Shown: positions 1,706 through 18,262 of the stretch, piece after piece
Layout: the number at the start of each line of letters is the position of its first letter
Numbering within the stretch: position 1 is the first letter of the stretch
From: Akkermansia muciniphila
GTDB lineage: Bacteria > Verrucomicrobiota > Verrucomicrobiia > Verrucomicrobiales > Akkermansiaceae
Direction of reading: 5' to 3'
Assembly (NCBI RefSeq): GCF_030848305.1
Contig: NZ_CP114598.1
Span: 1,798,001 to 1,862,000, forward strand
DNA: 64,000 nt
Made by a program: the position numbers and the translations under genes
Notes under the pieces: model-generated
Databases searched by the model: none
The model's input: only the letters and a program-made list of their open reading frames with translations
What the model was told of the DNA's origin: nothing

Positions 1706-1730
1706 GCTAACGCAGATTAGAAATCCGTTG
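1706..1730 (+). repeat. Left inverted-repeat arm of element 1
   Basis: This is the reverse complement of 1864-1886 except for a CA insertion at 1713-1714. The inner 16 bases, GATTAGAAATCCGTTG, match perfectly. Confidence 0.75.
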
Positions 1731-1863
1731 TTATCCGCAACGCCTGTTCATATGCTAAAATCGTTTATAATGAGAAAAATACCTCTGATCCAGGAATAAG
1801 CAGCAACATTTTCATGCACGCTTGAATATGCGTAAATGGCCCTTTTAGAACATTTTACCTTGA

Positions 1864-1886
1864 CAACGGATTTCTAATCCGTTAGC
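1864..1886 (-). repeat. Right inverted-repeat arm of element 1
   Basis: It contains the 19-bp palindrome at 1865-1883 with arms AACGGATT and AATCCGTT around TCT. It serves as the spacer between the putative -35 and -10 boxes. Confidence 0.75.
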
Positions 1887-7443: not shown

Positions 7444-7463
7444 CGCGGATCAACAATCCGGTG
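7444..7463 (+). repeat. Left inverted-repeat arm of element 2
   Basis: TCAACAATCCGGTG (7450-7463) is the exact reverse complement of the inner part of the right arm. The outer CGCGGA is partly matching. Confidence 0.7.
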
Positions 7464-7599
7464 AGTGCCGGGTTGTTTCAATAAAAATCCATTTTATTCT
7501 CATTAAACATGTTATATATTTCTATCATCTTGATGGAAGATGACTGATGCCATAAAAAATAAATGTAGTATATGATTAAGTTTTCATGATTTCCATTGA

Positions 7600-7619
7600 C
7601 ACCGGATTGTTGAACCGGT
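7600..7619 (-). repeat. Right inverted-repeat arm of element 2
   Basis: A 19-bp imperfect palindrome with ACCGG and CCGGT ends. It occupies the -35/-10 spacer. Confidence 0.7.
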
Positions 7620-7634
7620 TTACTCTCTTTTGTC

Positions 7635-8423
7635 ATGAAGAAATCCTTATTTTCTTTAGCTTTGATCGCGAGTTCCCTGCTTGCAGTACAGGCGGCGACG
7701 GTACAGATTGATTTCGGACGCAGTGACGCCACGACGGAAGGCGCGCTCAATATGAATTATGATAACGCCACCGCCTCTTTGGGCAGCATGCCGGGAAGCG
7801 TTTCTTTGGCGTGGAGCACGGCCGGAGGATATGTATCGGAAAACGGTTATACCACCACCAAGACGGCTGAGGAAGAAGCCGATTGGAAAAATCCTTTCAA
7901 CGGCAGCATGCCTTTCAGTCTGGGGGACTCCTTTCGTGACGGTCTTTTAACGCAAACGGCCGATGGTTCCGGTTATTTCACCGTAACGTTCAGTGGTCTT
8001 GCCGCCGGGGAATATGCCTTGTCCATCTTTGGAGGTTTCACAGGCAAGGACGTGTTTGCCGGTCAGACCTGGACGATTGGAAACGCCGATGCTTCCAATG
8101 CCGTGTGGACAAGCTTCGGTACAGACGCCAGCGGGAACTGGGCTGAAATTTCTTCCGTGACGGGAGATAATTCCGGCGTTCTGACTCCGGGAAATGCTGG
8201 AACTTCCAGCGCTACCGCCAATAAAGGGCTTTATTCCTCGGTGGAGAACATTGTCGTGGGGGAAGATGGAACGCTTACCCTTACGATTCAGGGGAATGGT
8301 TCCAGCTCTTACGGCCGGACGGCCCTCAATTATCTTGCCCTGACGCAGGTTCCGGAACCCGCTACGGCAGCATTGAGCCTGCTGGGCGCTGCTGCTCTGT
8401 TCCTGCGCCGCCGCAGGGCCTGA
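7635..8423 (+). CDS. PEP-CTERM sorting-domain secreted protein
   Basis: A 262-residue exported protein. A signal peptide occupies about residues 1-21 (MKKSLFSLALIASSLLAVQA). The C-terminus from residue 239 has the PEP-CTERM layout: VPEP, a hydrophobic helix and a terminal RRRR cluster. This tail directs proteins to the exosortase/archaeosortase pathway and the envelope in Verrucomicrobiota. The middle is a Ser/Gly/Thr-rich beta-type domain with no catalytic motif I recognise; the region around residues 105-120 (YFTVTFSGLAAGEYALSIFGG) resembles lectin- or adhesin-like folds. The ATG lies 15 bp after the invertible element, so expression is probably phase-variable. A terminator follows. Confidence 0.85.
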   Translation: MKKSLFSLALIASSLLAVQAATVQIDFGRSDATTEGALNMNYDNATASLGSMPGSVSLAWSTAGGYVSENGYTTTKTAEEEADWKNPFNGSMPFSLGDSFRDGLLTQTADGSGYFTVTFSGLAAGEYALSIFGGFTGKDVFAGQTWTIGNADASNAVWTSFGTDASGNWAEISSVTGDNSGVLTPGNAGTSSATANKGLYSSVENIVVGEDGTLTLTIQGNGSSSYGRTALNYLALTQVPEPATAALSLLGAAALFLRRRRA

Positions 8424-14900: not shown

Positions 14901-15485
14901 TTAATGCCAGAAAGCAGCGGATTTCCGTCTGGAAATCCCCTCCATATTGAGAGTTGAACATCTCAGAGCAGTAAATTTTGATTTATCGCTTTGATTTACC
15001 AGTTGCTCATACGCAGCTTGTTCTTCCAAAGGCGGTATCGGAATTTCATAAGCATGTACCACCTTATCTGTAACTGCAGGGTAGTTCGCACCACTGGCCT
15101 GATTTATCATAGACTCCGTAAATGGCACGCTATTAATGACACCCCACATATACCCTGTAGTAACACCAGTACACCTCAAAACACAGAAACCAGTTGAACC
15201 TACCACGTTATCATCAGAATATGGATTAACTGCAATATTCTGCAAGTTTGGTCTTACCGTAGAGTACATTATATCGCCTTGTTTCAGCACATACTGCGCT
15301 CTCGATGGAGCATCCTTAAGAACATAGGGTGTCAATCCTGTCACCATTTTGGAAGAATTATCAATCGATGATATATCTAAATACTGTATCTCATCTGATT
15401 TCTCAAAGATTTTCGCTACTCGATCAATCTTCTTTTCGATTACATCTCCAATCTTCTTTACTGGATATCCCTTACCGTAAAACAT
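14901..15485 (-). pseudogene. Silent hsdS fragment: second target-recognition domain
   Basis: An open frame of 194 codons whose first about 171 residues are identical to the second target-recognition domain of HsdS (16563-17678), beginning MFYGKGYPVKKIGDVIEKK. It lacks the first domain and its own start context. Its reading frame opens just inside the 13-bp junction sequence, 11 bp after the integrase stop. After the identity ends, the frame runs into about 23 unrelated residues. It is best read as a silent recognition-domain cassette or a leftover of a recombination event. Expression is unlikely, although it lies in the same direction as the operon. Confidence 0.8.
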
Positions 15486-15500
15486 CTCGACAAATTGAGA
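14973..15500 (-). repeat. Direct repeat copy A (TRD2 cassette)
   Basis: 528 bp that reads identical to 16632-17159, in the same orientation, offset 1659 bp. One border coincides with the 13-bp junction CGACAAATTGAGA (15488-15500). Confidence 0.9.
15488..15500 (-). repeat. Junction site S3 (CGACAAATTGAGA)
   Basis: 13-bp sequence shared with 17147-17159 and 17737-17749. It forms the edge of direct repeat A next to the integrase stop and is a candidate crossover site. Confidence 0.6.
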
Positions 15501-15511
15501 ATTGCAAACAG

Positions 15512-16489
15512 CTACCCGATGAACTTCCGGTGCGATTCCTTCACGTTGTTCTGGTTCACCATAGCGTATTGCAGGGTTGTATCAATGCTTTGGTGGCCGA
15601 GAAGTTGCTGCACCTGCTCAATTGGCATTCCTTTGTCAATGGCCATCGTCGCCAGCGTCCGTCGAAATTTATGCGGGTGTACCTTATGAAAGTTCAACTC
15701 CTTTCCGATTTTGCGAAGACGAATCTCTACGCCGCTAATCTGCAGCCGGTCATACGGCTTCAGAAGAGAAACGAACAGCGCGTCATTGTCGTCGGTACGT
15801 TCCGTGAGGTAACGCTGCAGGTGAATTTTCGTCCGTGCATCAAAATATACCTTGCGCTGCTTGTTTCCTTTGCCGAAGACGATGCATTCTCTGTTTTCAA
15901 AATCCACATCACCGCGATTGAGCTTGACGAGCTCACCGACACGGATGCCGGTAGAGGACAAGAGGTCAATCATGGCAAGATCACGTGTGTTATCGCAGTG
16001 GTCGCGCATGAGCTCCAGCGATTCATCGGAATAGGTCTCCTTGACCGTTTTGCCGGTCTTGACCTTATGAATCCTCCTCACAGGGCTCTTGACGATATAG
16101 TCCTCATCTTCCAACCAAGCGAAGAACGAGGAGAGGATGCGCCTCACATTGTCTAATGTGACCTTGCTGACGGTTCCTCGACGTTGATATGTATCGAGGT
16201 AACCTCGCAGATCTTCGGTAGTGATCTGGCATTCAGGCTTGTTGAGCGTCTTCAGCATATTACGAATCGTCGATTCATAATAGCGTAGAGACTTTTCGGA
16301 ACAGCCTTCTACACGCTTTGCGGCGATAAACAACGGAAGCATATTCGGCGTTGTGTTCTCTATCGCAGGGGTGTTTACAGACAGATTAGACAGATGCTTG
16401 TTGAGTGTCCGCGATAGTGCTTCCTTTTGATTTTCAGTCAGGATTTGTGATAAGTCCTGTTGTATGTTTGCGATTATTTGATTGATCAT
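15512..16489 (-). CDS. Tyrosine recombinase/site-specific integrase
   Basis: A 325-residue XerC/D-like DNA recombinase. An N-terminal SAM-like core-binding domain (about 45-140) precedes the catalytic domain. Catalytic residues are visible: R183 in TGIRVGEL, H273 and R276 in HPHKFRRT, H299 in LLGHQS, and the nucleophile Y308 in TLQYAM. GKGNKQRKV supplies the beta-hairpin lysine. The start is preceded by AAGGA. It sits between the full hsdS gene and a duplicated copy of the hsdS second domain, the usual position of recombinases that shuffle hsdS recognition domains in gut Firmicutes. Its likely targets are the 13-bp junction sites. A general Xer role is unlikely given the context. Confidence 0.9.
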   Translation of the reverse strand: MINQIIANIQQDLSQILTENQKEALSRTLNKHLSNLSVNTPAIENTTPNMLPLFIAAKRVEGCSEKSLRYYESTIRNMLKTLNKPECQITTEDLRGYLDTYQRRGTVSKVTLDNVRRILSSFFAWLEDEDYIVKSPVRRIHKVKTGKTVKETYSDESLELMRDHCDNTRDLAMIDLLSSTGIRVGELVKLNRGDVDFENRECIVFGKGNKQRKVYFDARTKIHLQRYLTERTDDNDALFVSLLKPYDRLQISGVEIRLRKIGKELNFHKVHPHKFRRTLATMAIDKGMPIEQVQQLLGHQSIDTTLQYAMVNQNNVKESHRKFIG

Positions 16490-16562
16490 GGTGTTTCCTT
16501 CTTTTTGTTTCCTCCGTTATCCGGAATTCCTCGGGGCAGAGGAAACACCATGAGCATAGCAA

Positions 16563-17678
16563 TTAGCCAAGATTCTCAGCAATGATGCGTTTATAGGTTG
16601 CGGTCAGCTCTGCAAGAGCCTGTTCGAGTTCAAATTTTGATTTATCGCTTTGATTTACCAGTTGCTCATACGCAGCTTGTTCTTCCAAAGGCGGTATCGG
16701 AATTTCATAAGCATGTACCACCTTATCTGTAACTGCAGGGTAGTTCGCACCACTGGCCTGATTTATCATAGACTCCGTAAATGGCACGCTATTAATGACA
16801 CCCCACATATACCCTGTAGTAACACCAGTACACCTCAAAACACAGAAACCAGTTGAACCTACCACGTTATCATCAGAATATGGATTAACTGCAATATTCT
16901 GCAAGTTTGGTCTTACCGTAGAGTACATTATATCGCCTTGTTTCAGCACATACTGCGCTCTCGATGGAGCATCCTTAAGAACATAGGGTGTCAATCCTGT
17001 CACCATTTTGGAAGAATTATCAATCGATGATATATCTAAATACTGTATCTCATCTGATTTCTCAAAGATTTTCGCTACTCGATCAATCTTCTTTTCGATT
17101 ACATCTCCAATCTTCTTTACTGGATATCCCTTACCGTAAAACATCTCGACAAATTGAGACTTAACGAGCTCATCCGTTGCAGAAATCAGCTTTTTATAGG
17201 ATTCCATCGTGTTATTGATGGACCATAATACTGCAGCCAGTTTGCGCTGTGTTTTCAGATCTGGCAGGTCAAATTCTAAAATTTTGAGGTCACGCCAGTT
17301 GATTGTCGGCGAAAGGGAACCTACGGAGATTTTGATGGCTGCGTCCAGAAAATAATCCGAGCTGATAAACAGCGGGAAGAAGTCCGGGTCAATGATTTCT
17401 ACATTAGGACGCAGTACCATGCCGTGCGCAGAGAAGATACCATCAAAAGGTGCGATGGCTACTTTCTTCTGATAGGCTCGGCGTTTGCCAAACAGGACAT
17501 CGCCTTTGCGCATCACGAGCTTTTCACCGACAGGAGCGACGTCGGAGCCGAAGCGAGTAACCTTCAAGTTAGCGGAATCGAGGTGTTCCAGTCCAATGTA
17601 TGTGAAGCGGTCTTTTTCGACCGGTTTTTTCTTTTCAGTGCTGTTGATTGCAATCTGTTCAAAACGATATTTTGCCAT
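16563..17678 (-). CDS. hsdS: Type I restriction-modification specificity subunit HsdS
   Basis: HsdS selects the bipartite DNA target of the type I complex. The protein has 371 residues in the two-domain layout: TRD1 (about 1-145), a central helical spacer ending KLISATDELVKSQFVE, TRD2 (about 160-335, starting MFYGKGYPVKK), and a distal helical region ending YKRIIAENLG. The start at 17678 is chosen because AAGGAGGTG lies just upstream and the ATG overlaps the half-hsdS stop (TAATG), implying coupling. The TRD1/TRD2 boundary coincides with the 13-bp junction site S2. TRD2 is duplicated exactly downstream of the integrase. Confidence 0.93.
   Translation of the reverse strand: MAKYRFEQIAINSTEKKKPVEKDRFTYIGLEHLDSANLKVTRFGSDVAPVGEKLVMRKGDVLFGKRRAYQKKVAIAPFDGIFSAHGMVLRPNVEIIDPDFFPLFISSDYFLDAAIKISVGSLSPTINWRDLKILEFDLPDLKTQRKLAAVLWSINNTMESYKKLISATDELVKSQFVEMFYGKGYPVKKIGDVIEKKIDRVAKIFEKSDEIQYLDISSIDNSSKMVTGLTPYVLKDAPSRAQYVLKQGDIMYSTVRPNLQNIAVNPYSDDNVVGSTGFCVLRCTGVTTGYMWGVINSVPFTESMINQASGANYPAVTDKVVHAYEIPIPPLEEQAAYEQLVNQSDKSKFELEQALAELTATYKRIIAENLG
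16632..17159 (-). repeat. Direct repeat copy B (TRD2 within hsdS)
   Basis: 528 bp that reads identical to 14973-15500. It covers HsdS residues about 174-349. Homologous or site-specific exchange with copy A would excise 1659 bp including the integrase. Confidence 0.9.
17147..17159 (-). repeat. Junction site S2 inside hsdS
   Basis: CGACAAATTGAGA at the end of the central spacer (coding KSQFV). The sequence on the TRD1 side differs from S3, while the TRD2 side is identical. Confidence 0.6.
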
Positions 17679-18262
17679 TATGCGCACCTCCTTAAACAAG
17701 TAACATGATCGAATAAATCATTGAGGGTTACGAACCCGACAAATTGAGATTTCACCAGTTCATCTGTAGCAGAAATTAGCTTTTGGTAGGATTTTTTAGT
17801 ATCATCCATAGACCAGAGCAGGGTAGCCAGTTCTCTTTGCTTATCCATATCCGGGAGATCAAATTCGTAATTTTTCAGGTGTTCCCACTTTACACGAGGA
17901 GAGAGGGAGCCAGCGGACTTGCCAATGGCAAAGTCGAACAGTGCATCGTTCTGAATGATGAACGGCAGTAGCTCAGGCAGGATGCGGTCAGGCTTTGCTT
18001 CAATAACGGTGATGTCACCGGAGCAGATGCCATCAAAAGGAGCAACAGCAGCCTTCTTCAGGTAGGCTCTGCGACGTCCAAACAACACATTGCCTTTGCG
18101 GAACATCTTCGTGAAGGTGTTTTCGCTGCCTTCGTTCCAAGTGGTCAATGTGATCTCTCCCGGTATCAGGTGCTCTAAGCCAATGATAGGATAGCCATCC
18201 TTGTCTCCTTTGCAGGTTTCCTTATGTTCTATAGCGACATCGCCAAGAAGAACTTTACTCAT
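17678..18262 (-). CDS. Half-length HsdS (single recognition domain)
   Basis: A 194-residue protein matching only the first half of an HsdS: one recognition domain (about 1-145, starting MSKVLLGDVAIEHKETCKG) and the central helical spacer ending LVKSQFV. Beyond the junction site S1 the frame continues for 19 unrelated residues, ending TAATG, which overlaps the next hsdS start. It differs in sequence from TRD1 of that gene, so it is not a simple duplicate. It may act as a half-S subunit that dimerises, or it may be a parked alternative first domain for recombination. GAAAGGAG precedes the start, and the gene overlaps the hsdM stop by 8 bp. Confidence 0.85.
   Translation of the reverse strand: MSKVLLGDVAIEHKETCKGDKDGYPIIGLEHLIPGEITLTTWNEGSENTFTKMFRKGNVLFGRRRAYLKKAAVAPFDGICSGDITVIEAKPDRILPELLPFIIQNDALFDFAIGKSAGSLSPRVKWEHLKNYEFDLPDMDKQRELATLLWSMDDTKKSYQKLISATDELVKSQFVGFVTLNDLFDHVTCLRRCA
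17737..17749 (-). repeat. Junction site S1 in half-hsdS
   Basis: CGACAAATTGAGA at the point where the half-length HsdS departs from HsdS similarity. It has the same orientation as S2 and S3. Confidence 0.6.

Follow-up and report, generated by a model that had tools for sequence, protein, structure and literature searches.

Results

A putative split promoter upstream of a PEP-CTERM protein gene

The window, i.e. the whole 64-kb stretch of DNA analysed, belongs to an Akkermansia muciniphila genome (G000) consisting of a single contig of 2.65 Mb. Upstream of a surface-protein gene it contains a flippable stretch of 172 bases, here termed element 2, the features of which are listed in Table 1 together with an element of the same class (element 1). 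An initial annotation of this DNA had placed arms of 19 bp around 136 bp; the 136 bp spacing was found as described, whereas the arms are 18 bp long and match at 17 of 18 positions. Its further observations, that TTGAC abuts the right arm in the same manner as in element 1 and that a TTTACT -10 hexamer follows at a spacing of 17 bp, both agreed with our analysis. In element 1, which precedes a gene for a membrane protein (start codon ATG at 1920), a -10-like TAGCAA is located just outside the right arm. Arm pairs matching at 17 or more of 18 positions and separated by 80-400 bp were found in the window only at elements 1 and 2, compared to a mean of 0.03 in 30 dinucleotide shuffles of the window; the arm pair of element 2 is not a chance occurrence. 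Measured against the 12 fixed positions of the core motif CGGATT-nnn-AATCCG, element 2 has one mismatch on the left and two on the right, with a centre common to both, and its orthologs in the genomes G017, G047 and G049 have one mismatch per arm. A second local inverted repeat at 7451-7476 (AACAATCCGG...CCGGGTTGTT) is continuous with the left arm and, as judged by eye, is not retained in the other species.

Table 1. Location of element 2, element 1, the switched gene and the candidate invertase gene (window positions unless a G000 position is given)
Feature	Position	Strand	Description
Element 1	1713-1881	+	arms 1713-1727/1867-1881; TTGACA at right arm
Left inverted-repeat arm	7446-7463	+	CGGATCAACAATCCGGTG; complementary to 7600-7617 at 17/18
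Left 15-nt core site	7446-7460	+	CGGATC-AAC-AATCCG
Invertible interior	7464-7599	no strand	136 bp, A+T-rich; holds TTGA of the -35
Predicted -35, TTGACA	7596-7601	+	on the invertible segment; overlaps inner edge of right arm
Right inverted-repeat arm	7600-7617	+	CACCGGATTGTTGAACCG; doubles as promoter spacer
Spacer	7602-7618		17 nt, between -35 and -10
Right core site	7603-7617	+	CGGATT-GTT-GAACCG
Predicted -10, TTTACT	7619-7624	+	fixed, outside the invertible segment; same in six genomes, either orientation
Switched gene, PEP-CTERM protein, 262 aa	7635-8423	+	ATG 10 nt past the -10
PEP-CTERM sorting signal codons	8346-8417	+	residues 238-261; PF07589, TIGR02595
Candidate invertase, stand-alone tyrosine recombinase, 380 aa	G000:C1:1947942-1949081		outside the window

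The proposed PEP-CTERM nature of the downstream product was borne out: its sorting signal scored above the cut-offs of both PF07589 (23.2 bits; cut-off 20.7) and TIGR02595 (23.8 bits; cut-off 16), and an exosortase is encoded in the genome (PF09721, 177.4 bits). The N-terminal sequence of the protein, MKKSLFSLALIASSLLAVQA, looks like a signal peptide. Given that the ATG is located only 10 nt beyond the -10, the mRNA of 7635-8423 is probably leaderless or near-leaderless. This distance fits the leaderless starts known in A. muciniphila, which account for approximately 10% of the mapped starts (PMC4782308). An ATG 8-13 nt past the -10 was seen at several switched genes (L078, L081, L083, L086, L087, L093), which suggests leaderless mRNAs for these genes.

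Both orientations of the segment occur in nature

The locus of element 2 is present in six Akkermansia genomes (G000, G053, G017, G049, G047 and G054), and in all six the flanks and the gene are collinear, as determined by local BLAST and direct reading. The segment lies one way in G000, G017 and G049 and the opposite way in G053, G047 and G054, each strain being represented by one assembly and each genome by a single orientation. G053 belongs to the same species as G000; the locus is 98% identical and inverted exactly between the arms. Since both orientations are found at one collinear locus across genomes, inversion of the segment is almost certainly real in nature, and we infer that flipping also takes place within a population. 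The lone mismatch between the arms (7614 versus 7449) keeps its flank in G053, placing the exchange on the segment side of the mismatch. An outer arm mismatch stayed with its flank in all four clearly inverted elements (element 2, element 1 and those at 1055358 and 1888475; site letters of G000 compared to G053). In G000 and G053 both arms have GTT as their centre, and in the other four genomes both have ATT, i.e. the arms change together between species.

With one assembly per strain, the two orientations might also stem from assembly error or from rare homologous recombination between short repeats, without any dedicated system. We consider this extremely unlikely: homologous recombination is not efficient on arms as short as 18 bp, both orientations recur across six independent assemblies (one of them a single contig), the outer mismatches keep their flank in each of the four inverted elements, and at least 25 elements follow one common grammar, as described below.

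A family of elements with pair-specific centres

A first search pattern, TTGACAnCGGATTnnTnAAnCCG, was too strict and retrieved only the two window elements and one other site. Using TTGACAnCGGATTnnTnATCCG with at most two mismatches, 29 matches were obtained in G000 and none with the reversed control. The family in this genome comprises at least 25 arm pairs built on CGGATT-nnn-AATCCG, with 20 distinct centres. The centre triplet was the same on both arms in 25 of 25 pairs, 13 of which differ elsewhere in the 15-nt core, and concordance was likewise complete in GTDB genome records (57 of 57 pairs). TTGA was found on the inner side of one arm in all 25 pairs of G000, and TTGAC in 23. Among 20 clearly comparable pairs, 16 had the same orientation in G000 and G053 and four were inverted, both window elements among them; one further pair (598300-601300), resting on a 36-nt match, and four non-comparable pairs are not part of this count. 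By the side on which its -35 lies, element 1 is ON in G000, and it is inverted in G053.

An unpaired site, TTGCCAACGGATTATAAATCCG, is located at G000:C1:1496337 (L091) and was listed in G053 and G017 as well. Segatella copri loci (L160, L188, L191, L208, L210) contain repeated copies of TTGAC(G/T)GCGGATTGCAAATCCG with no recombinase homolog nearby, and the non-Akkermansia loci matched in the collection scan held no homolog of the 380-aa recombinase described below. One match to the motif was found in viral contigs.

Twenty-two genes of G000 were assigned as switched, of which nine were scanned with Pfam and eight with NCBIfam, the gene of element 2 being in both sets. PEP-CTERM models scored above their cut-offs in eight of the scanned genes, and the scans also identified an acyltransferase and a membrane protein of the YfhO type. 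Judging from sequence reading only, further switched genes are glycosyltransferase-like or autotransporter-like.

Only the -35 is carried by the flipping segment

Element 2 had initially been described as an invertible promoter, which holds for the inversion and needs correction for the promoter, as the segment carries the -35 only. At a distance of 17 nt, TTTACT is preceded by TTGACA in the three genomes in the ON orientation (6/6 consensus positions) and by GACTCA, CGATCA or CCTTCA in the three OFF genomes (2/6). TTTACT itself, the length of the spacer and the 10-nt gap to the ATG are constant in the six genomes. The -10 lies outside the segment at element 2 in all six genomes and also family-wide, at variance with a layout having the whole promoter inside.

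In G000, a hexamer beginning with 'TA' occupied the -10 position on the gene side of 15 of 22 elements versus one of 22 opposite outer flanks (P=9e-6), with gene sides assigned from outward open reading frames and partly by judgement. In independent named Akkermansia records, with same-species records left out and an automatic gene-side rule, the corresponding values were 20/32 and 4/32. For OFF-state elements alone, in which the -35 faces away from the gene, 'TA' was found in 15/24 on the gene side versus 1/24 on the other. As 'TA' is thus present on the gene side even with the -35 facing away, the -10 stays with the gene side whichever way the segment lies. Together, these data indicate a split promoter, with a predicted -35 on the flipping segment and a predicted -10 fixed next to the gene, and transcription is very likely switched ON and OFF by the inversion. 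The phase-variation reading proposed at the outset is in keeping with this, given that orientation varies among genomes at one locus and the promoter is complete in one orientation only.

In all elements the palindrome fills precisely the gap that separates the -35 from the -10 position, as would also be expected if CGGATT-nnn-AATCCG were mainly an operator in the spacer, with a bound regulator controlling transcription and inversion being incidental. An operator role would not lead one to expect sites in inverted pairs that share their centre, a single -35 per pair or segments inverted between genomes, and the -10 signal on the gene side of OFF-state elements counts against it as well. We regard an operator role of this kind as very improbable.

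A tyrosine recombinase is a candidate for the invertase

A serine invertase was rejected, as the serine recombinase model PF00239 had no match in G000 at E<=0.001; nine tyrosine-recombinase genes were found in this genome. One encodes a stand-alone protein of 380 aa that matches PF00589 (Phage_integrase; 43.3 bits, cut-off 27.1) and shares the GIR/GLR, LRH and GH motifs with XerD (1a0p), the aligned stretch ending short of the tyrosine. Orthologs of this protein (89-100%) were present in 9 of 11 motif-rich genomes (at least 20 motif matches) and in none of 48 motif-poor genomes (at most 3), a difference that is confounded by common descent because the nine orthologs come from related species. 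The motif-rich genomes G013 and G028 have only relatives of approximately 45-47% identity. The gene adjoins that of a 645-aa decarboxylase in eight of the nine genomes, the neighbour in G037 not being resolved by a crude open reading frame call; by reading, this neighbour would be an arginine decarboxylase, speA.

Among 18 motif-poor genomes from which a motif locus was fetched, 12 have the motif adjoining a relative of the 380-aa recombinase (38-43% identical); part of this adjacency evidence consists of loci fetched for carrying the motif, and the binomial calculation for adjacency assumes approximately 12 relatives per genome. Of 20 further relatives picked from the hit list regardless of the motif, 13 are directly preceded by an inverted repeat, in many cases one with different arms. 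Such repeats with other arms were located upstream of the recombinase genes at L138, L139, L141, L142, L144, L146, L147, L151, L152 and L154, as if each of these relatives switched its own gene. The type of arm tracks the recombinase clade, with three changes on the tree and none of 5000 shuffles giving as few. The gene of the 380-aa recombinase, unlike those of its relatives, has no element upstream, and the protein falls outside the main clade of CGGATT-adjacent relatives. Based on co-occurrence, adjacency and the covariation of clade and arms, associations that fall short of proof, we infer with moderate confidence that the 380-aa recombinase is the invertase.

The segment could also be inverted by another enzyme, either one of two XerC/D-like proteins of the genome (295 and 315 aa) or a 356-aa member of the recombinase family (G000:C1:2362615-2363682), which has a CGGATT-type element with arm pair TACGGATTGGGAATCC upstream of its own gene. 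We consider this unlikely. The 356-aa protein was set aside, as its close orthologs in the sample are confined to G000 and G004, compared to 11 motif-rich genomes. XerC/D are expected to be near-universal, and a near-universal Xer protein would not explain a family confined to part of the genus. A 416-aa recombinase (G000:C1:1590944-1592191) was rejected, its close orthologs being found only in G000, G053, G017 and G054.

Elsewhere in the window (14901-17699), hsdS-like genes with a long identical stretch in common (FEKSDEIQYLDISSIDNSSK...) flank an XerC-like recombinase gene (15512-16489); this is likely a type I specificity-switching locus.

Discussion

We propose that element 2 is a phase-variation switch operating by inversion of half a promoter, an explanation that we hold, taken as a whole, to be highly probable. 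A tyrosine recombinase would pair the two 15-nt core sites, and strand exchange at or close to the centre specific to the pair (GTT in element 2) would invert the segment. In the ON state, the TTGACA of the segment would be set 17 bp upstream of the fixed TTTACT, and the surface protein, a substrate of exosortase sorting, could be expressed from an essentially leaderless mRNA. In the OFF state, the -35 would be directed toward the silent left flank, leaving the -10 without a -35. The 380-aa recombinase may act in trans on the dispersed sites. More tentatively, a single stand-alone tyrosine recombinase encoded on the chromosome could flip all half-promoter switches in trans, with the centre confining the choice of partner and binding blocking transcription; this extension is possible but rather doubtful. 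In the family of this enzyme, an element upstream of the recombinase gene itself is frequent. Binding of the recombinase would block transcription because its site is the promoter spacer, and flipping would then be coupled to repression.

Akkermansia is a much-studied gut symbiont in which surface switches are already known. The ON or OFF state could be read from any assembly by asking whether TTGAC is at the arm next to the fixed -10. Having one candidate gene makes it possible to address whether the switches have one common enzyme. By their description, fimS of E. coli and the invertible promoters of Bacteroides resemble element 2 in that a short segment bearing a promoter is inverted in a site-specific manner. 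In these systems the whole promoter is inside the segment, whereas element 2 carries the -35 only. A literature search for split invertible promoters yielded no usable precedent.

As far as the accessible parts of the following reports go, the mpl/P35 system of Mycoplasma penetrans comprises many surface-protein genes, each with its own promoter inversion (Horino et al. 2003, via PMC10502178); it belongs to an unrelated organism and is likened here by description only, on account of its multiple surface-protein promoter inversions. The A. muciniphila cps1 inverton, which PCR-restriction digest and qPCR showed to switch in culture, in mice and in human stool, has the motif of element 2 but controls a capsule locus (PMC13343947); the text available to us names no recombinase for it (0 occurrences). 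The motif CGGATT..AATCCG (Jiang et al. 2019) was used for Akkermansia invertons in the same report, and an enrichment of PEP-CTERM genes among the regulatable neighbours was reported for the mostly Akkermansia inverton group 138 (PMC11892184), in a survey whose invertase section, in the part consulted, draws links for Clostridia and Bacteroidia only. Given this published motif and the enrichment of PEP-CTERM genes nearby, element 2 belongs to a kind of inverton already described, sharing genus, repeat motif and short segments with those of PMC13343947 and PMC11892184. As far as the literature consulted goes, what is new here is the predicted split-promoter grammar, which was replicated in independent genomes, the centre triplet particular to each pair, and a candidate for the invertase. 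The Akkermansia invertons were described, in the portions of the reports at hand, with embedded promoters, whereas element 2 has just its -35 embedded, next to a fixed -10 outside.
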